DNA of 23,235 bases, taken from IMG/VR virus record IMGVR_UViG_3300024265_000209, positions 1-23,235 of that record; one strand, written 5' to 3'. This DNA comes from a virus. The first letter of the stretch is position 1. Every line of letters begins with the position of its first letter. The position numbers were made by a program, and so were the translations under genes. Of the stretch, positions 3 through 23,234 are shown piece after piece. The notes under the pieces were generated by a model, which searched no databases, was not told the origin of the DNA, and saw only the letters and a list, made by a program, of their open reading frames with translations.

Positions 3-1772
3 GGAGATTCGATATATATTGACGATATTTATTTTCAATCAGGTGCAGCATCCTCAGCAGATCGATTAGGTGGTTGTGAAGTAATTAGTTATCGTTCGAG
101 TAAAACAGGAGTCACGCCTGATACTGGTGATGATCTGGGTTCAGGTAGTTGGTTAAATACTCAGGAAATTCCGTTTAATACTGCAAATGTTGGTCGATAT
201 ACACTTGATGCAGCTGGTGCAGGATCAGTTAATACTGATGATGTAGGTGGTTCATCTGGTGGTGGGCCAAATACTGATACTAATCTTGATGGTACTATAC
301 CTGCACTTAAGGGTATTTGGTATGCAAAACGAGATGCTGGAACTGCAACTAGTCATTATGGACTGCTGGGCAATAGTGGTGATGGTACGACTCGGACTCC
401 AGAATTAGGACTTACTTCAACTGATACTATATATACATGGATATCTGAGCTAACAACGATAGTACCAACTACCTCAGAATATTGCAAGATTGGTTTTGAA
501 AAATCATCTGGTGGACGTGTATTTAATTGCCGTGATATGTTAGCAGTTATTTTGCATGTTCCAGTTGCATCAGTACCACGAGATGTTACTACTATTGCTG
601 AATTAATTGCAGTTACAGAGAATGCTGCTTCAATTAATATTAATGTTCCTAGAGTAGTAAATTGTGCTGTAGAATTAGTTGCGGTTACTGAAAATGATTC
701 AATAGTTGCTACTGCTGTACCTAGAGCTGTAACTAGTATTCCAGAACTAATTGCAATTACTGAAAATGATTCAATAATTGCTACTGCTGTACCTAGAGCT
801 GTAACTAGTATTCCAGAAGTAGTTGCAGTTACAGAATCAGATGCTTTAGTAAATAGTGAACGGAATATAGTTACTGATCCTGAAGTAGTTGCAGTTACTG
901 AAAACGATTCAATAGTTGCTACTGCTGTACCTAGAGCTGTAACTAGTATTCCAGAACTAATTGCAATTACTGAAAATGATGCAATTATAAATAGTACTCG
1001 TGATATATCTACTATTTCAGAATTAATTGCAGTTATTGAGAATGATGCAACTATTGATGCTAGTAGTCCATTAGTTGTAAATTGTATACCTGAACTTGTT
1101 TCAGTTATTGAAAATAATTCTGCTGTTGATTTTAGCCGACTAATTACTGGAGTATCTGAAGTAATAGCAGTAATTGAGAATGATACTTCTGTTAATAGAG
1201 GTAGAAATATTGCAGGTATATCTGAAGCTATTGTTATTATTGAATCTGATGCAACAATACAAAAAGATAATAGTGTAGCTACTATACCAGAATTTATTGC
1301 TGTCGTAGAAAATAGTGCCACAGTAAGTAGAAATAGAGATATTATTAGTATTCCTGAATCTATTGCTGCTATTGAATCTAATGCAATAATAAATCGAGCA
1401 AGAAATATTGCTACAGATCCAGAATTAATTGCAGTAATTGAAAATGATGCAACTATTTTAGCTAATGTTGATAGACTTGTAAATTGTATTACTGAAATTG
1501 TATTAGTTAAAGAAAATATTGCTACTATTAATTCAAGTCGTAATGTTATCACTACATTTGAATTAATAGCCGTAATAGAAAATGATTCAATTATTACAAA
1601 AAATGTTAACGTAGGAGCTCTATCAGAGCAAATAAGTGTTACAGAAAATTTAACCACTATTACACTTACTTATAATGTAAGTGGAATACCTGAAGTAATT
1701 CATATTATTGAGTCACAAGCAGTTATAATAAGAGATAGTATTATAGTTAGAAGAGTAATTATAGTATCGTGA
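3..1772 (+). CDS. Tail/adhesin-like structural protein, C-terminal 589 aa (5' end outside window)
   Basis: The frame is open from the left edge without a stop, so this is the C-terminal part of a longer protein; the first internal Met (position 537) is not the start. Residues 1-180 hold an opening with IYIDD and LGG, Gly/Ser/Asp-rich loops, and a second half with IWYAKRDAG and SEYCKIGFE. This resembles the lectin-like jelly-roll domain seen from memory in phage tail and minor structural proteins (typical LGD...YLVDE...AR.DGG pattern). Residues 200-589 are about 17 tandem repeats of 22 or 24 residues with the core E-[LVI]-I-A-V-[TI]-E-N-D-A. The likely role is host surface recognition or tail decoration, by inference from repeat architecture and position next to late genes. 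A beta-solenoid or fibre fold is plausible because each repeat alternates hydrophobic and polar residues around an END/ESD turn. Exact virion location is unknown. Confidence 0.7.
   Translation, partial: GDSIYIDDIYFQSGAASSADRLGGCEVISYRSSKTGVTPDTGDDLGSGSWLNTQEIPFNTANVGRYTLDAAGAGSVNTDDVGGSSGGGPNTDTNLDGTIPALKGIWYAKRDAGTATSHYGLLGNSGDGTTRTPELGLTSTDTIYTWISELTTIVPTTSEYCKIGFEKSSGGRVFNCRDMLAVILHVPVASVPRDVTTIAELIAVTENAASININVPRVVNCAVELVAVTENDSIVATAVPRAVTSIPELIAITENDSIIATAVPRAVTSIPEVVAVTESDALVNSERNIVTDPEVVAVTENDSIVATAVPRAVTSIPELIAITENDAIINSTRDISTISELIAVIENDATIDASSPLVVNCIPELVSVIENNSAVDFSRLITGVSEVIAVIENDTSVNRGRNIAGISEAIVIIESDATIQKDNSVATIPEFIAVVENSATVSRNRDIISIPESIAAIESNAIINRARNIATDPELIAVIENDATILANVDRLVNCITEIVLVKENIATINSSRNVITTFELIAVIENDSIITKNVNVGALSEQISVTENLTTITLTYNVSGIPEVIHIIESQAVIIRDSIIVRRVIIVS
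600..1769 (+). repeat. In-frame tandem array of 66/72-bp repeats (17 units)
   Basis: Units start at 600, 672, 744, 816, 882, 954, 1020, 1092, 1158, 1224, 1290, 1356, 1422, 1494, 1560, 1626 and 1692; the last is 26 codons and runs to the stop. Each encodes 22 residues, or 24 where two extra residues sit before a V/P-rich segment (units 1, 2, 3, 5, 7 and 13). The protein core is ELIAVxENDAxI followed by a variable stretch and then (S/T)IP or TDP. Codon use differs between most units, so the array is mostly old, but units 2, 3 and 5 are almost identical in DNA. The residues just before unit 1 (starting DMLAVILHVP) are also 22 long and may be a degenerate unit. Confidence 0.9.
696..980 (+). repeat. 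75-bp perfect duplication inside the repeat array
   Basis: Bases 696-770 are identical to 906-980, an exact offset of 210 bp, equal to repeat units of 72+72+66 bp. A shorter identical run of about 40 bp is shared between units 2 and 3 at an offset of 72 bp. The mismatch-free copy contrasts with the strong divergence of the other units and indicates recent duplication or gene conversion that keeps the reading frame. Confidence 0.85.
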
Positions 1773-8513: not shown

Positions 8514-10375
8514 TGAAAACTGATATTGAAACATTACGAGACAGTTTCTGGCTCGGTTATGATGAATATCTTGACTCTAGAGTAGAAGCTGAACTTGCAT
8601 GGAATTATTATCATAATAGACAGTGGACAGCTGATGTTGTTAATAAGTTAACAGCTCGTGGTCAGCCTGTAGAGACGTTCAATATTGTTAAGCTATTTAG
8701 TCGTATGCTTGTTGGATATTATTCTACAACAGTTAATACAGCTGTTGCAGATCCAAATCAATATAGTGATTTAACTACTGCTTCGTTAGTTACGGATGCT
8801 CTTGCTTCTATTTTCAGTACTAATAATATGGACGTACAAGGTGATGAAATTAAATTAGGTGGTATTGTATCTGGTTTAATGTGCACTATGCAACAACCAT
8901 ATAAGACAGGTAGTCGTGATCAATTTGGTCGTCCTATATATGATATTAGAATTACTTCTGTACCTGATTATGAAATAATTTTAGACCCATTGAGTACAAA
9001 TGTTGATTATTCTGATGCTAGATTCTTACATCGCTTTAAATGGCTCCCAGCTGAGTCTGTCATTAAAATGTTTGGTAAGTCTAAAGTTGATGAGTTAGAA
9101 GCCAATCATAACCATCTGCGAGTCCCTGAAGCTGATTATGATTATAGAGCACAAGGTCATCGTGGATTCTATGGTCGTTATAAAGTATTTGATAACTACC
9201 TTATAACTCATACAGTTGTAGAAGATGATCATGGTAAACGTTGGTCTATCTATTGGTCAAGTGAAGTAGAATTAGATCGCAAAGAAATTACATATAAAGA
9301 TGTTAAGTGGGACTATCGTGTATGTAAGTTACAGTCTTCTACTTTCAAAGAATACTATGGTGTATTTCATGAAGTGCTAGAAACTCAAAAAGCTATTAAT
9401 CAAGCACTTATTAAATTACAATTAATGGCTAATTCTGAAAAAGTCTTTGTAGAGAAAACAGCTGTTCCTGATATGGCTAAATTCACTGATGCTGTTAATC
9501 GTGTGAATGGTGTTATTCCAGTTAAAAGTTTGAAGGGTATTAGAGTTGAAAGACTTTCAGCAGATGCTATTGAGCAATATCAGATTATAGATAAGGCATT
9601 TGATCGTATTCAACGAGTACTTAATATTAATGACTCATTCCTCGGTATGGCATTTGCTTCTGATAGCGGCCGTAAAGTTAAACTGCAACAAAATGCTACA
9701 ATTATGGCTTTACGGTACCTGACTGTACGTATTGAATCTTTTTATAAGTTATTAGGTCAAGATATAGCAGCATTAGTTAAACAATACTATACTGCAGATC
9801 AAATTTTACGTGTAGCTGATGATATAGTTGGCCAACGATTTATACAACTTAATAAACCAATGGAGCAATGGTCAGGACAAATTGATCCAGAAACTGGTCA
9901 AGCTATTATGGAACCAGTATTTGAACAAGTATTTGATCCTGAAGATGATAAACCGCTTGTTGATGATAAAGGTCGTTTAGTCTTTGCTCCTATACCAGAA
10001 CCTGCTACTGAATTACAATTTACTAAACATGATATTCACATTGAAGCTGTAAACTATAATGATGAAGATGAGCGTACTCAACTCATGCTTGAAACTGTTA
10101 TGTCTGGTCAGATGGGTCAAATGATGGCTCAAGTAAATCCAGCAGGTTTCTTCAAAATATCATCACTTAGTTTGAAGACTATGAAAACTAAATACTCACC
10201 AGAGATTAGTCGTATTTTTGAAGAGACAGCTAAGATGTTACAGCAGTCGCCTGAAGACGAAGAAGGCGCAGCAGCTATTGCTGGTGGAATAGCACAACCA
10301 TCAGGTGGTAGCAGTAGTCAGAATATGAGCAAACAAAATAAACTTCCAACTAATACTAATGAGGCAGTAATATGA
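8513..10375 (+). CDS. Portal protein, P22-like
   Basis: A 620-aa protein with the head-tail connector signature. The N-terminal region has WNYYHNRQWTADVVNKL and RGQPVETFNIVK (residues 29-60), matching the portal motif '(Y)Y.G.QW...........GrP....N.v'. A central region follows with VPDYEIILDPLS and ARFLHRFKWLPAE, as in P22-type portals ('v....f.DP.s...D..DA.....'). Next come a helical stem/crown region (KAFDRIQRVLNINDSFLG) and an acidic, Gly/Ser-rich C-terminal tail. The portal forms the dodecameric DNA entry ring. I use ATG 8513, which overlaps the previous stop (TGATG) and lies 7 bp from GGAG (8502-8505); an in-frame TTG at 8510 is closer to the ribosome site and less likely. Terminase and capsid genes are not in this window. 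Confidence 0.85.
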   Translation: MKTDIETLRDSFWLGYDEYLDSRVEAELAWNYYHNRQWTADVVNKLTARGQPVETFNIVKLFSRMLVGYYSTTVNTAVADPNQYSDLTTASLVTDALASIFSTNNMDVQGDEIKLGGIVSGLMCTMQQPYKTGSRDQFGRPIYDIRITSVPDYEIILDPLSTNVDYSDARFLHRFKWLPAESVIKMFGKSKVDELEANHNHLRVPEADYDYRAQGHRGFYGRYKVFDNYLITHTVVEDDHGKRWSIYWSSEVELDRKEITYKDVKWDYRVCKLQSSTFKEYYGVFHEVLETQKAINQALIKLQLMANSEKVFVEKTAVPDMAKFTDAVNRVNGVIPVKSLKGIRVERLSADAIEQYQIIDKAFDRIQRVLNINDSFLGMAFASDSGRKVKLQQNATIMALRYLTVRIESFYKLLGQDIAALVKQYYTADQILRVADDIVGQRFIQLNKPMEQWSGQIDPETGQAIMEPVFEQVFDPEDDKPLVDDKGRLVFAPIPEPATELQFTKHDIHIEAVNYNDEDERTQLMLETVMSGQMGQMMAQVNPAGFFKISSLSLKTMKTKYSPEISRIFEETAKMLQQSPEDEEGAAAIAGGIAQPSGGSSSQNMSKQNKLPTNTNEAVI

Positions 10376-13300
10376 GTTTATTTAAGTTGGGTAAATTAGG
10401 TCTTGATTTAGCAGTAGATGTTAGATCTACTCTTGAAGATGCACTCAAAGCTATGCCAGATCAAAATATGGAACCTGATAGTATAGCTAATGGATTAAAG
10501 AATAGAGGTGTGCAGGATCGTGAAATAGAACAATCAGGTGTTAACAGATGGCTAAATAGAGATATAGCAGATAATGAATTACCTAAACCAAAAGACATAT
10601 TAGAATGGGTAAAAAGAACTAGACAAGATAAATATTCAGTGCATGAAATTCGTGGCACACCATCTGGAAATCGTACTAATATTGATGATTTAGCAGCAGA
10701 AGTTGGCGATGAACCACTTGAAAATATGACTCCTGCTCAGTATCTTGGTAATATTGTCGAAGGTATACAAGATGGTCGTATTCCTGCTGAAGATCTTCCT
10801 GAGGGCTGGCTTGAAAGACTTCGTGATGCTGTTCATACAGCTGAAGAAATAGAAGTAGACGGTAATATTGATAGACTTGGTTCTGTATTAGATCGGTATG
10901 GTTTTATAGGCGAAGAGGATTATCAATTTGTAGATGAAGCTATTACTAATTTAGATGCTTTTGTAGAAACTGTACATCGTGCACAAGGACGTGAAGCCGC
11001 ACTAGCATTTGAACAAGAAGTATTAACAGCTGGTAGTAGGTCTAAAGAGCAAATATTAAGAGCTTATGATTTTGATGTAGATGATCTAGTAGGTATAGAA
11101 GGTAATTTTCAATCGTATGTAGAAGAAATACGTAGACAAGATGGTAATAGAATTGCACAAAGATTTGAGACAGAATTTTTGGCAGCTAGAGTAGAAGGTC
11201 AAGTAATTGAACCATTAGGTGTTACATTACAACCAGCAGAATTACTTGTAGAAGCTGATACAGAGCTTAGGCGGTTAGCAGATAATTTTGGTACAGAAGC
11301 TCCAGATGTTAATGATCAAGCTGCAGTGAATGAGTTTATACATGAACTAACTACTCCGCTTAATCCAGATATACCTCTTGATCCTGAAATTATAAGACCT
11401 ATAAATGAATTTCATGCTGCTTATACTCAATTGAGACAAGCTATTGATGCAGGTGAAGGTACTATAGATATACCTAATTTCAATACACGTATAATAGATC
11501 CTAATACTCCAATGACTTTCTCTGATAATGCATATAGAGGATATGCTTTGCCTAATACTAATGATGCTTCTTATGCTGTTCGTATTTATAAGAATAAAGC
11601 TGTAGATACTAAAGGTTTTAACTATGTTGAGCATTTTCCTGGTGAAGCTGTAAATGGAGGTACATTCCATACACGTACAGATGTTATACAGAATAATGAA
11701 GTACTTCGTATTCAGGAGATTCAATCAGATATTCAGAATGCAATGACTAAACAGAAAACTAGAGCTATTGCTAATTGGAGAAATAGTTCTTTTAAATTGC
11801 GTATATTTGATATTACTCCTACTTCTGATAATCCAGAAGCTATAGAGATTTTAAGTAAAGTCAATGATAATGTGCTCAAACTTTTAGATGCAAAAGGTAT
11901 AAGACCTAATCATGGTGACGTAAGTGATGTTTTAGAAAGTACATTTAGAACAGATATATATGAGTCAATGTCAGAATTGTTACATCCAGATGATCTTAGC
12001 AATTTACAATCGTTTACACAACATTGGTTAGGTGCATTAAAAATTACTTCTAATTCTGGTGCAATGAGTATGCCTGAAACTGTTGCAAAAGATCTTGCAG
12101 AAAATACTGATTTGTCATTAGAACAAGTCAAAACAATTGGTAAAGAGTTAGAAACTTTTCCTGAAAGGTATAAATTACAAGTTGAAAAAGAATTACAAAA
12201 ACATACAGATAAAGCAGAGGAAATAGATAAGCTTAGAATATCACCTAAAGAACGACAAACTCGTATTCAATTAGGTACTAGAAATGCTACAGTTGAAGAA
12301 CAAATACTACAAGCTAGATCTATAGTAGATGCTACTGAACTTGTCAATAATAAATATGGCTTAGATCTACTTGATACAGATATAAAGAATCAAAGTCAGT
12401 TGCGTGAAGCTATAACAGAAGCTGTAATGGATTCTCCCTTAGATACAATAGCAGATAATGTACTTAAACAAATGAATACACCTCCTGTGAGAGTACGTGG
12501 TCAAGTAATACGAATGTCAAGAGGAACAGAAGAACGTATTAAAACTGAGATTAATAATGTTACTGACAAAGGCATAAACTATATACAAGCAAGTTTTCCT
12601 GATAAACCTGATATTTTAGCTATAGCAAAAGAAGCTACAGATGAAGCAACTAAAACTGTGAAAGAAGGTATGAAAGAATTAACTCCACTAGAGAAATTCC
12701 CTGACGCTAATAAATTTGATTTAGATATACCATGGAGAAAGCAAGGTATTCAAAATGAAGTTGTACGTGCTATTGAAAATGGTCAAAAAGAAGTATGGCT
12801 TACTGTTAAACCAGAAGGTACAAGTAAATTAGTTCGTGATCAAAAAACTGTACAACCTGCTTATGAAACTGGTGGTAGTATAAACAAAACTTTTAGAGCT
12901 GTAGCTAAAAGATTTGGTGCTAAAGTAGTTGAAGAAGATGGCTATCTTAAAATGAAACTTGCTGCTATTGCTAGTAGTGGAGTAACTTTACCTCTTTATG
13001 CAGATACGAATAGGCAAGATTTTATTATTGAAGCTCGTGAACGTGGTTTAGACGATGCTACAATTGCAGCATTCTTAGAAGAAAAACCTATTAAAGAAGT
13101 AGAACAATCTCATCAGTTTCAAGAAGCAATAAATAGAGGTATTGATCCTGCTGTAGCTAAAAAGTTTGAGCATGAACGATTCATTCAGGAATTAAATCCA
13201 AATCAATTTGCTGAACATCCTGGTATTGAAAGTGATTTACCTACAATAGATGGTTCTATTCGATATGATAAACTACCTTTTGATACTATTAAAGAAATAG

Positions 13301-15729
13301 CTATTGAATTAGAAGTTGATCCTAGTACTCCATCAGGTATAGATCAAATCTATGAGGAAGCTATATATAAAAACAATCCTGGATTGCGAGAAGCTAATCA
13401 AAAGAAAGCAGGCGAATTCTTAGCAGATGAAGCTAGAAGTGATATTGCAGACTTCATTGAACTAAATGATTACTGGCAACCATTCAATTGGGCGGCAGGA
13501 AAACTTGGTTGGGGTTTAGCTGAAGAAGTATATAGACTTAGAAAAGCTCAAATAGCTCGTGATGTAGTTGAGATAGGTAAAGAGCATGGTTATGATCTCA
13601 TTGCTGGACAAGGTCAAGAAGTAGGTAATCCACCTATAATATTAGAAGAAGATAGATGGTATGTCAATGTTAATGGTAATGTCTTTGATGCTACACCAGG
13701 AATTTTAGCCAGTCTAGCTCGTGAAGGTGGTGAAATAGGTATATCTATAGGAGGTGGTACTGCTGCTGCATTAGCAGTTGATAGATACACTAAAGGTTGG
13801 GAAGCATTTCCACCTACACGGTTAATGAAATTTGGCGCAGTAACTGCTGGCTTTGTAGCTGGTGCTGTATTTGGTGATCAAGTAGATTATGCTACAGCTG
13901 CTATTAGACAGCATGAAGAATATAACTGGAGTGTAGCTTTAGATAAAGCTTTAGGTTCAGCACAACTTGCTGTTGTTGGTGAAGTATTAGGATTAGCAGG
14001 AATCACAATACTTAAAAGTAGTGCAAGACATATAATACGTGCCTATAATACTGCAGCAAATGGTAATATCGATGGTGCTTATGATATATTGCTTAGATCA
14101 TTAGATGTTACAGATGAACAAGCACAAGAACTTGTTAGACGATGGGAAAGTGTTAATCAGAAGCAAGCACCTGTATTAGCTGATAAAAGAGGTAGATTTA
14201 ATCCGCGTAATCTTCTTGGTAAACCAGATAAAGAAAAAGCTATTGCTATATTACCGGTAACTAGAGCTGGTGGTGAACATATAATACCAGCAATAGCTGA
14301 AAAGAATCCTAGAGCTTCTGCTGCTATTGTTTCTGAAATAAACCAACGAGCTAAATCGTTAGTAAGAGCTGCATCAGGTGAAATTGATAAAAGTGGTAAA
14401 CGTATAGTAGCTCAAGAAATTATTGATGGCATTGGTACATATAAAGCTGATGTAGAAGACTTTTACAATGTGATTAAACAACAAGGCGGTGATCTAGCAC
14501 CTACTGGATATGGCTGGGATATGGATACAATGGCAATTAAGCCATTAGTTGAAGATCTAATTAGTAAAATATATAGAGATGGCCCACGTAAAGCTGCAAT
14601 GAATATGCTAAAGCGTATTGACAAGCTAACTACAGGTCGTACCTTTGAAGATCTCATTGAACTGCGCCAGTTAATGAATAAAGTTCGTAGTGGAAGAAGT
14701 CTTGGCAAAGGTGAGCATGAAGCATTTCAAAACATTATGGGTAATATAGATAATGAGATTGAAGATGTGTCAAGACGTATGGGACCAGGTGGTGAGCAAT
14801 GGGCTAAAGACTGGACAACGGCTAAAGCTGATTATAGTGAGATGAAAAAACTAACTAATAATGCTTTGTCTAAAATTTTACAGCGTCCAGGTATTAGTGA
14901 TGAAGTAGTTGCTAAAGCTTTAGTTAAATACGGTACTGCTTTAGATGGTACATATGATAACTTGATTAAGCGATTACCACTTGATGTGCAACCTAATGTA
15001 GAAGCACTGATTATTGATAATTTAGTTGAAAAATTTACTGATGGCAATATTACACAATTGCAAGCAACTAATTTTCCAGAATTATCTAGAGCATTAGCTG
15101 ACTACGATTTTGTATGGCCACGATCTAGATCATTAAGAAGAGTAGTTGATACATTCGCTGAAATTTATCAAAATGATAATGCACTATCATATGTATCTGG
15201 TGGTATCTCAACAACTAAATTCCAAAGTTATCTTACTACTGATCCTGTTATAAGGGCTAAATTTGAAATTGCTAGTGGATTCTTTAATCAGATTAAGATT
15301 TTAATGGGTGGACCTAAAGGTGATGCTGCTGCATTAATTAAAGCTAGTGCTAAATTACTTGAAGATCCATTGAATCCACATAATGTTGAACGAGCACTTG
15401 CTGCAGTAGAAGATGATTCTATACTTCAAAGTGCTATTAAGAAACTATCTGCTGAAACTGCTGCATCTAGACACTTAGGCAGACCAGGAGTTACTGGTAA
15501 GGTCAAAATCTTTAGAGATAAAAGCGGTAGATTATGGACTAAAGATGGTAAAGGTCGTACAGCTGCTGAAGGAATACCAATGCACCGTATGACTAATGAA
15601 GAAGTTGCTACTAAAGTTTCTCAAGCAAAAGATGTGAGAAACCTTAGTGAAATAGAAAAGGCTAGATTAATTGATGCTGGGTTTGTATCAATTGGATTGG
15701 ACGATGGCACAGTTATTATACTTAACTAA
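10372..15729 (+). CDS. Giant 1785-aa polyvalent-type virion protein with EIQSD domain and membrane-active-like segment
   Basis: The last gene of the late block, overlapping the portal stop (ATGA) and preceded by GAGG. Three recognisable parts are seen. (1) Residues 46-95 match the N-terminal module of large phage multi-domain proteins: EIEQSGVNRWL ... KPKDILEWV ... VHEI, whose usual form is EIEWSGL..WL...t..e.l..v......eev. (2) Residues 384-453 match the next module: YRGYALP, HFPGEAVNGGTFHTRTD and EVLRIQEIQSD (normally YtLPg...HF...N.laH.R...R.....vl.i.EiQSDw). Its second half resumes at 787-861 (PWRKQGIQNEVVRAIENG, then FGAKVVEEDGYLKM). (3) Residues 1116-1215 hold three Gly/Ala-rich hydrophobic stretches (1124-1139, 1152-1171, 1194-1215). 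The rest is helical. It probably enters the cell with DNA, as T7 gp16 or polyvalent proteins do. No lytic transglycosylase or protease motif was found. Confidence 0.7.
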   Translation: MSLFKLGKLGLDLAVDVRSTLEDALKAMPDQNMEPDSIANGLKNRGVQDREIEQSGVNRWLNRDIADNELPKPKDILEWVKRTRQDKYSVHEIRGTPSGNRTNIDDLAAEVGDEPLENMTPAQYLGNIVEGIQDGRIPAEDLPEGWLERLRDAVHTAEEIEVDGNIDRLGSVLDRYGFIGEEDYQFVDEAITNLDAFVETVHRAQGREAALAFEQEVLTAGSRSKEQILRAYDFDVDDLVGIEGNFQSYVEEIRRQDGNRIAQRFETEFLAARVEGQVIEPLGVTLQPAELLVEADTELRRLADNFGTEAPDVNDQAAVNEFIHELTTPLNPDIPLDPEIIRPINEFHAAYTQLRQAIDAGEGTIDIPNFNTRIIDPNTPMTFSDNAYRGYALPNTNDASYAVRIYKNKAVDTKGFNYVEHFPGEAVNGGTFHTRTDVIQNNEVLRIQEIQSDIQNAMTKQKTRAIANWRNSSFKLRIFDITPTSDNPEAIEILSKVNDNVLKLLDAKGIRPNHGDVSDVLESTFRTDIYESMSELLHPDDLSNLQSFTQHWLGALKITSNSGAMSMPETVAKDLAENTDLSLEQVKTIGKELETFPERYKLQVEKELQKHTDKAEEIDKLRISPKERQTRIQLGTRNATVEEQILQARSIVDATELVNNKYGLDLLDTDIKNQSQLREAITEAVMDSPLDTIADNVLKQMNTPPVRVRGQVIRMSRGTEERIKTEINNVTDKGINYIQASFPDKPDILAIAKEATDEATKTVKEGMKELTPLEKFPDANKFDLDIPWRKQGIQNEVVRAIENGQKEVWLTVKPEGTSKLVRDQKTVQPAYETGGSINKTFRAVAKRFGAKVVEEDGYLKMKLAAIASSGVTLPLYADTNRQDFIIEARERGLDDATIAAFLEEKPIKEVEQSHQFQEAINRGIDPAVAKKFEHERFIQELNPNQFAEHPGIESDLPTIDGSIRYDKLPFDTIKEIAIELEVDPSTPSGIDQIYEEAIYKNNPGLREANQKKAGEFLADEARSDIADFIELNDYWQPFNWAAGKLGWGLAEEVYRLRKAQIARDVVEIGKEHGYDLIAGQGQEVGNPPIILEEDRWYVNVNGNVFDATPGILASLAREGGEIGISIGGGTAAALAVDRYTKGWEAFPPTRLMKFGAVTAGFVAGAVFGDQVDYATAAIRQHEEYNWSVALDKALGSAQLAVVGEVLGLAGITILKSSARHIIRAYNTAANGNIDGAYDILLRSLDVTDEQAQELVRRWESVNQKQAPVLADKRGRFNPRNLLGKPDKEKAIAILPVTRAGGEHIIPAIAEKNPRASAAIVSEINQRAKSLVRAASGEIDKSGKRIVAQEIIDGIGTYKADVEDFYNVIKQQGGDLAPTGYGWDMDTMAIKPLVEDLISKIYRDGPRKAAMNMLKRIDKLTTGRTFEDLIELRQLMNKVRSGRSLGKGEHEAFQNIMGNIDNEIEDVSRRMGPGGEQWAKDWTTAKADYSEMKKLTNNALSKILQRPGISDEVVAKALVKYGTALDGTYDNLIKRLPLDVQPNVEALIIDNLVEKFTDGNITQLQATNFPELSRALADYDFVWPRSRSLRRVVDTFAEIYQNDNALSYVSGGISTTKFQSYLTTDPVIRAKFEIASGFFNQIKILMGGPKGDAAALIKASAKLLEDPLNPHNVERALAAVEDDSILQSAIKKLSAETAASRHLGRPGVTGKVKIFRDKSGRLWTKDGKGRTAAEGIPMHRMTNEEVATKVSQAKDVRNLSEIEKARLIDAGFVSIGLDDGTVIILN

Positions 15730-16219: not shown

Positions 16220-17092
16220 TTACTTGTCAATTCTTACACCATTGAACCTAGGTAGAAATAATGACCATCTACCTGTGCGTTGATCTTGAATAACACTATT
16301 ATATTTAATTTCAATAGTTCTATCAATGTAAACATACGGAGTTAAAGATCGTTGATTGTCATTCATACCTGAACCAGCTTTAACTATGACATGCTTTCCT
16401 TCAACTGTACCACAACAAACTAAAGCACCAATCATACCTTCATACTTACCTGTACCTGGAGTAGTATTAGTACATAATAAATCAGCAGTCTTAGTTTCTT
16501 TAATCTTAACCCAATGAGGTGAGCGTGAGAACCTATACATATGATGTTTTGGTTTAAGTATAAGACCTTCAAATCCATCAGCATATAATTGCTCACTTAG
16601 TTCTTGTACTTCTTTTATTGAATTAACTAATGTGTTACGAGCTATTGGTAATCCAGCAGTAATTGTACGTTCAAAGGTATTCACATAACGGAAGTGATAA
16701 TCTTCTTCACATTTACGAGCAATAAAATCCTCTATAGACATGCTATCAAAAAGCGGATAATCTAAAATACCTTCATTGATACGTCCACCATGCATAGCAG
16801 AATTAATCATGCCTGATACCATAGGACGAGTACCTACACGACCACCTTGCGTCACTATCTCACCATCTAACATAACATTACCAAGTCTAGCATCTAATAA
16901 TTGTCCACTGAGATTAGGTAAAGGTACTTCATTACCATTATAGGTATAGAACTTTGGCATGTCTTCAACGATTTTAGTTATTAGTCTAACACCATCAAAC
17001 TTTAACTGTGCTATGAGTGGAAATTCAAGCTTTTCAAGCGGTACTTCTTTAGCCTTCATAGCTTTAATTTCTACCTTAGGTAGTGTAATCAT
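16220..17092 (-). CDS. ATP-dependent DNA ligase
   Basis: A compact 290-aa nucleotidyltransferase that seals nicks. All core motifs are visible: motif I QLKFDGVR with Lys31 as the AMP-accepting residue; the conserved Glu in LDGEI (Glu78); motif III region around FYTYNG (residues 48-53); motif IV GFEGLILK (173-180); and motif V WVKIK (194-198). About 90 residues follow, enough for the OB-fold domain, which ends with a basic stretch (TGRWSLFLPRFNGVRIDK). It is shorter than T7 ligase (about 359 aa) because it has a minimal N-terminus, like other small phage ligases. The start overlaps the helicase stop (ATGA), so the two are translated as a unit. It likely acts in lagging-strand joining or repair next to the phage polymerase. 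Confidence 0.93.
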   Translation of the reverse strand: MITLPKVEIKAMKAKEVPLEKLEFPLIAQLKFDGVRLITKIVEDMPKFYTYNGNEVPLPNLSGQLLDARLGNVMLDGEIVTQGGRVGTRPMVSGMINSAMHGGRINEGILDYPLFDSMSIEDFIARKCEEDYHFRYVNTFERTITAGLPIARNTLVNSIKEVQELSEQLYADGFEGLILKPKHHMYRFSRSPHWVKIKETKTADLLCTNTTPGTGKYEGMIGALVCCGTVEGKHVIVKAGSGMNDNQRSLTPYVYIDRTIEIKYNSVIQDQRTGRWSLFLPRFNGVRIDK

Positions 17093-19565: not shown

Positions 19566-20353
19566 GATTTTGTACCTACAAATCTGCAGTCATTATAAAA
19601 AGCACAGTACTTGGGACTGCATAACCAGTACTTAGGATTACCTCTAAAGAGGATGTTTGGATCAATTATATCTTTGTTAAGAACTTCAAGTGTATCGAGA
19701 AGTGTATTCACAATAGCTTTAGCTTTAGGGATATTGATTTGTGCATCCATTACATGACCTTCAGGCTTAGCCTTAAGGACTACTGCTTGAATGCTACTAT
19801 TATTAACCTTGATACCATTCTCTTCTACTACAAATCTATAAATAGATTGCTGTGTAGATGAATTAGCTACTTGAGGTTTACGTTTACTTGTCTTGACATC
19901 AGATATAAGACCAAGACGTTCTTCAACATAATCAAGTGTACCAGATATACCCTCAACAATAGGATGACCAGTAATCTTAACTGTATACCTTTTCTCTACA
20001 TGAGTTGGAATAACTACCCAAGGTACGATATCTTCAACATATGTATCAAGACCTACGATAATCTCTTTAGCACATGAACCTTGTGATTCACTCGCGTCAT
20101 AGACTAAGCCTTTCTGTTCTTCTTCAGTGAAAGCTTCCATTGCTGCATCAGCCATAGAACCTTTACTAGAGATCTTAGTCTTAGCTTTAATACTGTCCTT
20201 CCACATCTCTTCAACACCTGCATGAATAGCAGTACCAATTGCTGCACGGCTATTAGGAATGCTTGTGCCTCCTAAGATGAATACACGATACCACTGAGAT
20301 GGGCATTGTGCACCACCATCTAATGACGATGGTCTTAATATAATTTTACTCAT
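19562..20353 (-). CDS. Cas4/RecB-like PD-(D/E)XK exonuclease with Fe-S cluster motif
   Basis: A 263-aa nuclease. Visible motifs are SLDGGAQCPSQW with Cys17, GTAIHAGVEEMW with His44, GTLDYVEERLGLISDVKTSK carrying Asp141, Asp152 and Lys154 (the D-x(n)-DxK core), then QQSIYRF (the Q...Y motif), and a C-terminal cluster of Cys245, Cys250 and Cys256. One early plus three late cysteines is the AddB/Cas4 arrangement that binds a 4Fe-4S cluster. In phages such enzymes act in replication, recombination or host DNA breakdown; no CRISPR array or other cas gene is present here, so the Cas4 resemblance does not imply CRISPR function. It overlaps the deaminase stop by 8 bp. Confidence 0.85.
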   Translation of the reverse strand: MSKIILRPSSLDGGAQCPSQWYRVFILGGTSIPNSRAAIGTAIHAGVEEMWKDSIKAKTKISSKGSMADAAMEAFTEEEQKGLVYDASESQGSCAKEIIVGLDTYVEDIVPWVVIPTHVEKRYTVKITGHPIVEGISGTLDYVEERLGLISDVKTSKRKPQVANSSTQQSIYRFVVEENGIKVNNSSIQAVVLKAKPEGHVMDAQINIPKAKAIVNTLLDTLEVLNKDIIDPNILFRGNPKYWLCSPKYCAFYNDCRFVGTKS

Positions 20354-20765
20354 AAAACTTCACCTCTATCTTAGCTTCAGTTAAAAGACTGATAGCCATT
20401 AGTTGATCATCCTTCCATGATCCACCAGGATTAGGGCAGACAATCTGTTTGATTCTTGCATTGATTAATAGCTTAGCACACTCAATACATGGTGCTTTAG
20501 TTACATGCATAGTCCAACCACGTAATGATGTATCACCATTAACAATACAGTTAGCTTCAGCATGTACCATTAGTTGATTCTTTAGAACTCTATCTGTCAA
20601 GAGTTCTTCTGTGTCTTCTATACCAGTAGGAAAGCCATTATAACCAATGACTATACCACGCTTATCAGGTGAAACGCATATAGCACCCACCTGTTTATTA
20701 GGATCCTTAGACCATGTGGCTACTTCAAGTGCTAACGAGAAGTAACGCATATTCCACTTATTCAT
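20346..20765 (-). CDS. Deoxycytidylate (dCMP) deaminase
   Basis: A 139-aa zinc-dependent deaminase. The catalytic pattern is clear: HAEAN with His68 as zinc ligand and Glu70 as proton shuttle, and PCIECAK with Cys93 and Cys96 as the other ligands. The N-terminal segment SKDPNKQVGAICV and the substrate-loop GYNGFPTG are typical of dCMP deaminases. It converts dCMP to dUMP, the substrate of thymidylate synthase, and thus alters the host nucleotide pool. It is encoded two genes after a thymidylate-synthase homologue that may itself act on dCMP, so the two could compete for or partition the same substrate. Allosteric extension sequences known from some enzymes of the family were not identified. 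Confidence 0.92.
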   Translation of the reverse strand: MNKWNMRYFSLALEVATWSKDPNKQVGAICVSPDKRGIVIGYNGFPTGIEDTEELLTDRVLKNQLMVHAEANCIVNGDTSLRGWTMHVTKAPCIECAKLLINARIKQIVCPNPGGSWKDDQLMAISLLTEAKIEVKFYE

Positions 20766-21039
20766 TTAGTATATCTTGCTCCGCTAAAATTGCATAACCA
20801 GCTATGTCATGCCATGTATCTGAATGAGCATGACCTTCATTAAGTATACGAGCAATCTTATGCATAATCATACCTAAAGCAATACGTTGTACACTAGATA
20901 AGTGTTGACCATGTGTATTTTGTATATGCCGTAAATGTAATTCTATACGTGCATGTCGTTTAAAAGGTCCATGTTGTATTTTACGTTCTTTTAATGTTGC
21001 TTCTACATGTATTGTACTATCTGAGCCACTCTTTTCCAT
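20758..21039 (-). CDS. DUF6378-like small phage protein (93 aa)
   Basis: The start is set at 21039 (MEKSGSDSTIHVEA), where a GGAA ribosome site lies 6 bp upstream and only a short gap follows the preceding stop. An earlier Met at 21093 would overlap that gene by about 40 bp and reads its coding sequence out of frame. The body has ERKIQHGPFKRHARIELHL and IALGMIMHKIARIL, then DTWHDIAGYAILAEQ, a pattern of the phage/prophage DUF6378 type ('.R...yG.f..........lmM..hKiaRi......~DsW.DiaGYa.la'). This fold is related to MazG-like helical NTP-binding proteins by resemblance of its 'K..R......D...D.aGY' core, though no enzyme activity is established. Context is nucleotide metabolism. Confidence 0.7.
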   Translation of the reverse strand: MEKSGSDSTIHVEATLKERKIQHGPFKRHARIELHLRHIQNTHGQHLSSVQRIALGMIMHKIARILNEGHAHSDTWHDIAGYAILAEQDILNE

Positions 21040-21049
21040 AGTATTTCCA

Positions 21050-21844
21050 TTAATGTAATTCAAATTGAATTGGATTGAAGGGATCATAATCAATGAGACT
21101 TATAGAGTCCTTATTGAAATCATATAAAGAACCTTCATTTAAATAACTTACAGGATAATCACCTACAGTTGCTACTGCAGCCAAATATTCTTTTACACCA
21201 TAAGTATGTGATTTATAGATATGTGTGTCACCTAGCATGAAGACTAATTTACCAGGTTGCAAACCTAATTGATCTGCCATTAGTATATTCCAAGTAGCAG
21301 CTAAGATTACATCTGATGGTAAGCCTATCATAGTATCAACTGAACGCTGATACCAAATCATTTCTAAGTAGCCACCATTCACGTACCATTGATATAATAA
21401 ATGGCAGCAAGGTAAACTAAGATCAGGTAAATGATCAGGTTGCCAACCAGATATAATGTGCCTACGACCGGTTGGGTCATTCGCGAGACTATCCAACGTA
21501 GCTTCCAACTGGTTAACGCCATTAAAGTTGAGCCAGCTATTACCATAATCAATATTAATAGTTCCATCAACATTACTCCATTTATTCCAATAAGGACAAC
21601 CTTCATCTTCAAAATCCTTAATAGTCTTAGGACCTTTCAAGAATGCAGCCATCTCACCAAAGACACCTGTATAGAACATTCGCCTACCTTGTAAGATAGG
21701 GAATTGTCCCCAGCAAAGTTCATGCACTTCAAGTGTCTTACCAAAGACAGCTCTAGTAGGAGCATTACGAGTTTCTCTATCATTACCATCTCGCAATACT
21801 TCATTGATTAGTTTACAATAATCTTGTTCATATTGGCTAGGCAT
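21050..21844 (-). CDS. Thymidylate-synthase-family enzyme with Asn-to-Asp change; candidate dCMP hydroxymethylase/methylase
   Basis: A 264-aa protein with the full ThyA fold: GRRHIISGW (Arg127/Arg128, phosphate binding), LSLPCCHLLYQ with catalytic Cys147, YQRSVDTMIGLPSDV (Arg167, Ser168, Asp170), LGDTHIYKSH (His/Tyr contacts to the nucleotide), and Glu64 in VFGEMAAFLKG. In standard ThyA the segment is GLPFN, and that Asn (E. coli N177, L. casei N229) selects dUMP; here it is Asp178. In T4 dCMP hydroxymethylase the equivalent residue is Asp179, and N229D in L. casei ThyA lets the enzyme act on dCMP. So the substrate may be dCMP and the product hydroxymethyl- or methyl-dCMP. The predicted change is read directly from codon GAT; the activity is inference. 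Start and stop overlap neighbours closely. Confidence 0.85.
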   Translation of the reverse strand: MPSQYEQDYCKLINEVLRDGNDRETRNAPTRAVFGKTLEVHELCWGQFPILQGRRMFYTGVFGEMAAFLKGPKTIKDFEDEGCPYWNKWSNVDGTINIDYGNSWLNFNGVNQLEATLDSLANDPTGRRHIISGWQPDHLPDLSLPCCHLLYQWYVNGGYLEMIWYQRSVDTMIGLPSDVILAATWNILMADQLGLQPGKLVFMLGDTHIYKSHTYGVKEYLAAVATVGDYPVSYLNEGSLYDFNKDSISLIDYDPFNPIQFELH

Positions 21845-22251
21845 TATAACCTATCTCCAACTTTAGGATAACCTTCACCATCTAATGCTATGTGTCTATC
21901 ATAATTAGTTCTATCTACTATTTGAACCAACCATGTATAAGAATATCCATCATCTAAGTGTGGTTTATCATGTATTTCTATAATAGTGACAACATTCCAA
22001 TGACCATTAGTAAAGACTACAGCTTTATCACCAACTTCACAATCTTCATCTGTCATGAATGTATATATCATTAATGATGTAGCATATTTAACACCTACTG
22101 TAATAAATTCTTTAGGTCTAATATCTTCTATAATAGTATTTAGTAAATGTGGAGAACAGCATTCAACATGTCTTTTTGCTTCCCAACATGAATCACATAA
22201 TTTAGTAGTATCCATAGCTCTTTCTATACCACAATATTTGCATTTAGTCAT
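21844..22251 (-). CDS. Zinc-ribbon protein with C-terminal phage beta domain (135 aa)
   Basis: The N-terminus is a treble Cys pair (CKYCG at residues 4-7 and CDSC at 19-22), a probable zinc ribbon, followed by a Cys/His-containing helix (HVECCSPH). Residues 50-130 form a beta-rich domain with YATSLMIYTFMTDEDCEVGD, GHWNVVTIIEI and SYTWLVQIVDR. The last part resembles small phage domains of the type 'Y.Y.vp....v.vGD.vvv........v..v.ei', whose role is unknown. Both ends overlap neighbours by one base (TAATG). Nucleic-acid binding next to the polymerase is plausible but not shown. Confidence 0.7.
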   Translation of the reverse strand: MTKCKYCGIERAMDTTKLCDSCWEAKRHVECCSPHLLNTIIEDIRPKEFITVGVKYATSLMIYTFMTDEDCEVGDKAVVFTNGHWNVVTIIEIHDKPHLDDGYSYTWLVQIVDRTNYDRHIALDGEGYPKVGDRL

Positions 22252-23234
22252 TACTCTACCTCGTATTTAAATGTATAAGAATCTACTTCAATATCACCCC
22301 AGTGATAACCACCAAGGACTTGTACTGGCATTGGAAGATCCTTAATTAAAAGCTGTTTACTAACTTCAGACCATGCATCTTGCATTGCTTCAGCCATTCG
22401 TGCAGCCATTTGCGTATACATTGTCTTATCATTAGGTGCATCAACAATAAAGCTATCATGAATAAAGTTTTGTAGATAGCAATCATTGTCTTTAAAATGT
22501 GGATACATGTAATGCATGGCTAACTTAGCTACTTCAGCACCTGTACCTTGATTCTCAATATTCAATTGATCAGTCATCATACGACCACGGTATTTACGAC
22601 CACATGCTGTTGAGCCTAATCGTCCACCATTATAATCTCTAATACCTTTCTGTTGCCATGCTGTTATACCAGGGAATAGGTTTTTCCACCTACGCATTTC
22701 ACGACCAACATCATTGAAATCCATTAGTATGTCAGCTTTCTCAATAAGAATACCTCTCATCATACCAACACCACCACCGTATAAAGCATTGAAATTAATA
22801 GTCTTAGCAATATCTCTAATGATACCTAATTGATCTCTTACGAGATTGTGAATGTCACCTCCTTCTCTATAAGTGGTAACCATTCGGTAGTCTCCAGTAA
22901 TCGCAGCAATCCCTCTGAGCTCAAGTTGTGAAAAGTCACTGTATAACATGTATCTGTCGGGCCTAGCTCTAAAGATATGTTTAGTTTTCCTAGGAGTTTG
23001 CTGTAAATTTTGATCACTGCATGTATATCTTCCTGATCTAGCATAAGGACCAAAGATGCCATAAATCATTCCTTCTGGTGTATCAAACTTATTAAGAAAA
23101 CTATTAAGCTTTAGTAGCTTACGTACTATACGAACTTGACCTGCCTTCTTATTACCTTGTAATGCAAGAGTAGCAAGGCCTAAGCCATTAGACATATCAC
23201 TGCCTATATAAGGTCTTACTTGTTTATATGAGTT
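22251..23234 (-). CDS. Family A DNA polymerase, C-terminal part (5' end outside window)
   Basis: Reading leftward from the right edge the frame is open from position 23234, so the gene continues beyond the window; the Met at 23195 is internal. Thumb and palm/finger motifs are present: SGRYTCSDQNLQQTP (the TGR..S..PNLQ.IP motif), motif A DFSQLELRGIA with the first catalytic Asp, motif B RDIAKTINFNALYGGG, and motif C IHDSFIVDAP with the second catalytic Asp. Motif B reads NFN where most relatives have NFG, and motif C reads HDS where most have HDE. It is the replicative polymerase of the phage and heads this stretch of the leftward operon. Proofreading domains, if any, lie outside the window. 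I am certain of the family. Confidence 0.93.
   Translation of the reverse strand, partial: NSYKQVRPYIGSDMSNGLGLATLALQGNKKAGQVRIVRKLLKLNSFLNKFDTPEGMIYGIFGPYARSGRYTCSDQNLQQTPRKTKHIFRARPDRYMLYSDFSQLELRGIAAITGDYRMVTTYREGGDIHNLVRDQLGIIRDIAKTINFNALYGGGVGMMRGILIEKADILMDFNDVGREMRRWKNLFPGITAWQQKGIRDYNGGRLGSTACGRKYRGRMMTDQLNIENQGTGAEVAKLAMHYMYPHFKDNDCYLQNFIHDSFIVDAPNDKTMYTQMAARMAEAMQDAWSEVSKQLLIKDLPMPVQVLGGYHWGDIEVDSYTFKYEVE

Follow-up and report, generated by a model that had tools for sequence, protein, structure and literature searches.

Which pyrimidine nucleotide does a phage enzyme of the thymidylate synthase (TS) family act on when the Asn that marks TS sensu stricto is replaced by Asp? This question is raised by a gene at positions 21050 to 21844 (minus strand) of IMG/VR virus record IMGVR_UViG_3300024265_000209, which we analyzed as a single stretch of 23,235 nucleotides (here called the window). 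The gene encodes 264 amino acids from an ATG start, and its product is a predicted dCMP methylase, i.e., a ThyA-fold C5-modifying enzyme. In our reading, the protein probably has dCMP as its substrate and converts it to a C5-modified form for use in phage DNA; the most likely product is 5-methyl-dCMP, incorporated as 5-methylcytosine (5mC), with 5-hydroxymethyl-dCMP as the main rival. We infer the substrate, the product, its incorporation, and the protection that it may confer from sequence, family conservation, gene order, and fold prediction.

A ThyA fold with Asp at the pyrimidine-selecting position

The window protein is a full-length match to PF00303 (Thymidylat_synt; residues 7 to 262, E value = 2.5e-57, 194.5 bits). 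Its AlphaFold2 model (mean pLDDT of 95.3) superposes on ThyA over 254 residues (1.3 Å, Z of 34), including the C terminus up to ThyA residue 263, and profile and fold thus both place it within the TS fold. T4 gp42 was absent among the 50 fold matches listed for the window protein, which has no bearing on this membership.

The alignment with Escherichia coli ThyA (EcTS) is free of gaps across EcTS 143 to 180 (window 144 to 181) and pairs Asp178 (codon GAT, positions 21311 to 21313, minus strand) with EcTS Asn177. The codon and the alignment bear out the Asn-to-Asp replacement that the original prediction had read from the DNA letters alone. That prediction had also equated the residue with Asp179 of the T4 dCMP hydroxymethylase and had proposed a wider alignment as a check; when ThyA, T4 gp42, and relatives of phage XP12 were aligned, Asp178 fell in the pyrimidine-selecting column, which it shares with Asp179 of gp42. 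The remaining ThyA contacts are intact, as predicted, with Cys147 at the position of the catalytic nucleophile (EcTS C146), Arg127 and Arg128 (R126 and R127), Ser168 (S167), Asp170 (D169), His208 (H207), and Tyr210 (Y209) all aligned; Glu64 matches E58 as well. The C-terminal residues are FELH in the window protein versus PVAI in ThyA.

Conservation of Asp178 across a podovirus family

Relatives of the window protein occur in phages KF-1 (46.5% identity), Amaethon (53% over 82% of the query), VPMS1, PH1, and Kolga, in two spring-water podoviruses, and on 134 IMG/VR stretches. The Kafunavirus-like podovirus group has hosts in Edwardsiella, Dickeya, Vibrio, Pseudoalteromonas, and Pelagibacter. 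The DNA patterns used for recruiting the family left out residue 178, and the IMG/VR part of the set was the best 80 of the 134 stretches, giving 88 aligned sequences together with the cultured Kafunavirus-like phages. Asp is present at position 178 in 86 of these 88 sequences and, after removal of near-duplicates (at least 90% identical), in 67 of 69, at a mean pairwise identity of 48%. Asp178 is a family trait and not a private mutation, and its conservation is more than chance. Asp99, Leu144, Pro145, Cys146, Cys147, and His148 are invariant in all 88 sequences.

The only two Asn-type genes (L027:5001-5828 and L028:4992-5807) are sisters nested in the Asp clade (FastTree; pair support of 0.68) and therefore look like one reversion. 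Neither of these contigs encodes a dCMP deaminase, and L027 carries a dihydrofolate reductase (DHFR) gene 2.5 kb downstream of the TS gene. Covariation of Asp or Asn with DHFR is suggestive in this respect but has no statistical weight, because Asp-type loci also have DHFR and the Asn type consists of just two sister sequences. Vibrio phage VP-1 (Ackermannviridae; L094/L106), whose TS has Asp177 and Pro147 with a thymidylate kinase nearby, joins the family as a sister branch with support of 1.0 (FastTree). A further TS-family protein, from Alishewanella phage Slickus01 (L104:2486-3391), has Ala at EcTS 177 and Trp at 147.

A single TS gene in each record and calibration by phages with reported cytosine modification

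Exactly one TS gene (PF00303) was found in each of the 24 family records searched, which comprised 17 IMG/VR contigs and 7 phages (KF-1, Amaethon, VPMS1, PH1, Kolga, and both spring-water phages). With a single TS gene in every record searched, the Asp form does not accompany an ordinary TS as an additional gene. For the phage of the window, whose record is a fragment of 23 kb, we infer a single TS gene from these relatives. VP-1 and VR26 likewise have one PF00303 gene each, and T4 has three pieces, namely, the intron-split td and gp42. T4 td, a true TS (structure 1tis), has Asn at the selecting position, as do E. coli ThyA and the ThyA-like phage TSs compared.

The T4-like phage VR7 provides an independent calibration. 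Its sole TS gene is a td with Asp177 and with TS-like His147 and Leu143, and its genome has no gene 42 (gp42); VR26 also has a td with Asp177 as its sole TS gene in a genome without gp42. Both Gaprivervirus genes (L129:1498-2358 in VR7 and L097:1498-2358 in VR26) are annotated as dTMP synthase. VR7 cytosines are reported to be modified, and its DNA unglycosylated (PMC6326788). The Gaprivervirus td may be a dCMP methylase from which this modification arises, and VR7 supports the view of Asp177 TSs as cytosine-modifying enzymes.

DoCa10 and AXL1, which represent their relative, the 5mC phage XP12, in our comparison, also carry Asp at EcTS 177. Their Asn143 and Pro147 motif is Leu144 and His148 in the window protein; this difference counts against close kinship and not against activity, because the class is not known to require the motif. 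PF00303 is the domain most strongly associated with cytosine-modified contigs, in which Asp177 is typical and PF00383, PF14437, PF01068, PF14743, and PF01503 are associated or co-occurring domains (PMC8670742). Besides PF00303, the window encodes PF00383, PF14437, PF01068, and PF14743, and its relatives encode PF01503-like proteins. In that study, modified contigs are further set apart from unmodified ones at position 147, for which the text names no alternative residue; of these two marks, the window protein has Asp178, with position 147 unchanged (His148).

Methyl or hydroxymethyl product

The original prediction left open whether the product is hydroxymethylated or methylated and took T4 dCMP hydroxymethylase as its leading comparison. 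Hydroxymethylases have an Asp three residues before the catalytic Cys and a Ser or Thr two residues before the catalytic Tyr, and the T4 D145N replacement abolishes product formation (PMC6400193). At the position of T4 Asp145, where Asp or Glu would be expected, the window protein has Leu144 (Leu in 88/88), and at that of T4 Ser94 it has Ile98 (Val, Leu, or Ile in 88/88). Its C-terminal tail is full-length, whereas T4 gp42 ends earlier. The residue at EcTS 143 is Asp in T4 gp42, SPO1, M6, and PhiW-14, Leu in ThyA-type proteins and the window family, and Asn in the XP12 relatives; we take the M6 and PhiW-14 proteins to be hydroxymethylases. ThyA Trp80 is kept throughout the window family and Trp83 in 86 of its 88 sequences. 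Carbamoyltransferase (PF02543) and family 2 glycosyltransferase (PF00535), the two families searched as possible signs of 5-hydroxymethylcytosine (5hmC), were found in none of 50 relatives.

Methylation is the likelier chemistry because the signature Asp and Ser are absent and the Leu143, Trp80, and Trp83 of ThyA are kept, and 5-methyl-dCMP is further favored by the lack of PF02543 and PF00535 proteins in the 50 records. Given action on dCMP, these residues lead us to lean toward a methyl rather than a hydroxymethyl product, and the comparison with T4 loses its leading place.

A dCMP hydroxymethylase, in which water instead of hydride would attack the exocyclic methylene to give 5-hydroxymethyl-dCMP and DNA with 5hmC, the state of T4 DNA prior to glucosylation, is possible but doubtful. 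It draws its case from Asp99, which is found in no other TS-family protein compared. Asp99 adjoins the catalytic Tyr100, where ThyA has Val93, and is located spatially where T4 places Ser94; it could activate water in place of the T4 Ser94-Asp145 pair. Asp99 is, however, retained in both Asn178 sequences, and even the single D145N change leaves T4 gp42 without product (PMC6400193). Other points in favor of hydroxymethylation are a C-terminal tail sequence unlike that of ThyA and the distribution of DHFR, which a hydroxymethylase would not need. Reductive methylation would need DHFR, whose gene adjoins the TS gene in an XP12 relative and in VR7; its presence above the cutoff in only 4 of 50 family records counts against the methylation reading.

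Gene neighborhood and the possible use of dUMP

All of the neighboring genes considered here are on the minus strand. A family A DNA polymerase gene (positions 22251 to 23234), whose 5' part is cut by the window end, lies upstream of the TS gene in agreement with the Kafunavirus gene order, and between the two is a gene for a 135-amino-acid protein (21844 to 22251) without known function according to open reading frame and profile searches. Directly downstream, overlapping the 3' end of the TS gene, lies a gene for a helical DUF6378 protein (20758 to 21093) that is possibly nucleotide related, followed by a dCMP deaminase gene identified by profile matches (20346 to 20765; PF00383, PF14437, and phrog_174). 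An ATP-dependent DNA ligase gene, also identified by profile matches (16220 to 17092; PF01068 and PF14743), belongs to the neighboring replication module. The order of polymerase, TS, (NTP-pyrophosphatase), (DUF6378), dCMP deaminase, PD-(D/E)XK nuclease, helicase, and ligase matches that in KF-1-like phages.

Among 59 nonredundant Asp loci with at least 3 kb of downstream sequence, NTP-pyrophosphatase is encoded in 47, dCMP deaminase in 49, and at least one of the two in 58. Members of the window subclade encode DUF6378 and the deaminase, with no match to the adjacent NTP-pyrophosphatase of its relatives. In one relative (L017), the TS gene is directly followed by a gene for a gp1-like deoxynucleoside monophosphate (dNMP) kinase (L017:5804-6433; match to phrog_139, E value = 2.7e-10), and homologues occur in three other records. 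T4 gp1 is a known dNMP kinase of this type. One part of phrog_38514 matches the L017 kinase and another the Kolga pyrophosphatase, which suggests a natural fusion.

This neighborhood fits nucleotide-level cytosine modification, and we regard it as moderate evidence because the same genes fit ordinary dTMP supply. By analogy, the pool logic resembles that of T4, in which a pyrophosphatase yields dCMP for the C5-modifying enzyme and a kinase, and a deaminase feeds dTMP synthesis; in the window phage, the dCMP deaminase could supply dUMP for host ThyA.

Several other features of these regions were observed. The DUF6378 protein has the motif HKiARILN...DtWHDIaGYA, conserved beside some family TS genes; we considered it as a dCTPase, and neither Foldseek nor VIA-align gave a convincing PDB match for its helical AlphaFold model. 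In six relatives, at L028:5804-6217 and five other loci, the TS gene is immediately followed by one for a 137-amino-acid protein of no known family, whose start (GRDGQLP) vaguely recalls DHFR. Elsewhere in the window, positions 3 to 1772, cut by the window start, encode a protein containing numerous imperfect repeats of the form PELIAVTENDSI, and positions 10372 to 15729, in the structural gene region, encode a 1,785-amino-acid protein without a Pfam match.

An ordinary TS that tolerates Asp and still methylates dUMP would agree with the deaminase as a source of dUMP, with the ThyA-like state of every other catalytic residue, and with the name thymidylate synthase that family proteins bear in database records. 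We consider this reading unlikely, given that, in the literature summarized in PMC8670742, an N-to-D change at the pyrimidine-selecting site switches TS toward dCMP, that Asn is kept in E. coli ThyA, T4 td, and the ThyA-like phage TSs compared, and that Asp is held across so divergent a family. A thymidylate bypass, in which dCMP would be methylated and the adjacent deaminase would turn 5-methyl-dCMP into dTMP with little or no 5mC in DNA, is very unlikely: it accords with the deaminase near most Asp-type genes and on neither Asn-type contig and with the title of a 1982 paper on new thymidylate biosynthesis in XP12 infection (cited in PMC11946847). It cannot be the general role, because no PF00383 protein is encoded by Kolga or VPMS1, whose Asp-type genomes are complete, or by the L017 contig of 41.9 kb, and it is at odds with the association of Asp177 with modified DNA (PMC8670742) and with the reported modification of VR7 cytosines (PMC6326788).

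Proposed mechanism

Action on dCMP is supported by the conservation of Asp, the single TS gene per genome, the nucleotide pool genes nearby, the calibration with VR7, and the published link between Asp177 and modified contigs (PMC8670742). The part of the original prediction that proposed a dCMP substrate and, as a likely consequence, modified cytosine in virion DNA thus stands as the probable reading. The enzyme would have a TS fold with its substrate switched from dUMP to dCMP, and Asp178 would recognize and protonate the cytosine ring. Cys147 would attack C6, methylene-tetrahydrofolate would provide the one-carbon unit for C5, and the intermediate would most likely be reduced to 5-methyl-dCMP, since the enzyme keeps the features that go with hydride transfer (Leu144, Trp86, Trp89, and the full C-terminal tail) and lacks the Asp with which hydroxymethylases activate water. 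Phosphorylation may be carried out by the phage gp1-like kinase in some relatives and otherwise by a host kinase; upon polymerization, phage cytosines would become 5mC, which many restriction enzymes would fail to cut. In most relatives, a MazG-like pyrophosphatase would supply dCMP from dCTP, and host ThyA would make dTMP with the help of the dCMP deaminase. Points against this reading are the retention of His148 (EcTS 147), the window subclade having no adjacent NTP-pyrophosphatase, and the altered C-terminal residues. In the literature searched, we found no enzyme assay or nucleoside analysis for any family member and no restriction digest data for KF-1, ETP-1, or VPMS1.

Implications

Chemistry of this class has precedents in XP12, T4, and engineered TSs, and the family described here is widespread and unrecognized. 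Its genes were deposited as thymidylate synthase and read as dTMP supply helpers, and those of the papers examined that mention these phages treat the TS just as an auxiliary metabolic gene or do not discuss it. It is somewhat more plausible than otherwise that a large unrecognized podovirus group has genomes in which cytosine is fully modified through a third natural lineage of dCMP C5 enzymes, distinct from those of T4 and XP12, that combines a ThyA-like site with the N-to-D change and invariant Asp99 and Cys146 and either methylates dCMP or hydroxymethylates it through a different residue set. If the enzymes act on dCMP, KF-1, ETP-1, VPMS1, PH1, Amaethon, Kolga, and the viruses of the 134 IMG/VR stretches would be phages with modified cytosines. 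Modified cytosine could hide phage DNA from host restriction enzymes, and such modification would bear on resistance to restriction and to type IV enzymes, on the sequencing and cloning of such DNA, and on the evolution of the dUMP/dCMP and methyl/hydroxymethyl choices within one fold. The natural Asn reversion and the VR7 td offer ready-made comparison pairs.

Comparison with known systems

A close parallel in the active site is engineered TS (N229D in Lactobacillus casei and N177D in E. coli), which has the same ThyA-like site with Asn changed to Asp and is reported to make 5-methyl-dCMP, as cited in PMC8670742. Compared with these variants, the natural family adds invariant Asp99 (for Val93) and Cys146 (for Pro145), usually has Ser or Ala177 for Phe176, and differs in its C-terminal tail. 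The family shares with T4 gp42 (PMC6400193) the fold, the catalytic Cys, the equivalent of Asp179, and a phage nucleotide pool module with a deaminase and, in relatives, a pyrophosphatase and gp1-like kinase. However, identity to gp42 is 21%, and the window protein is without Asp145 and Ser94 equivalents and keeps Trp83, Leu143, and the full C-terminal tail. The T4 system also differs in that no glucosyltransferase was found in the window family (PF02543 and PF00535 searched in 50 records).

The XP12-type (Bosavirus) TS protein of 5mC phages shares Asp at EcTS 177 and a cluster with dCMP deaminase, which in AXL1 includes an annotated nucleotide pyrophosphohydrolase, but it forms a separate tree branch with its own Asn143, Pro147, and Ala93 and with an adjacent DHFR. 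The Gaprivervirus td of VR7 and VR26 is similar as a single TS gene that combines Asp177 with His147 and Leu143, in VR7 in a phage whose cytosines are reported as modified; it differs in being close to T4 td, in its adjacent DHFR and ThyA-like C terminus, and in having neither Asp99 nor Cys146. Finally, the TS-family dUMP hydroxymethylases of SPO1, M6, and PhiW-14 share the TS fold and the modification of phage DNA at the nucleotide level, but their residue 177 is Asn, which goes with dUMP, and their residue 143 is Asp, which goes with hydroxymethylation; the window protein is the opposite at both sites.
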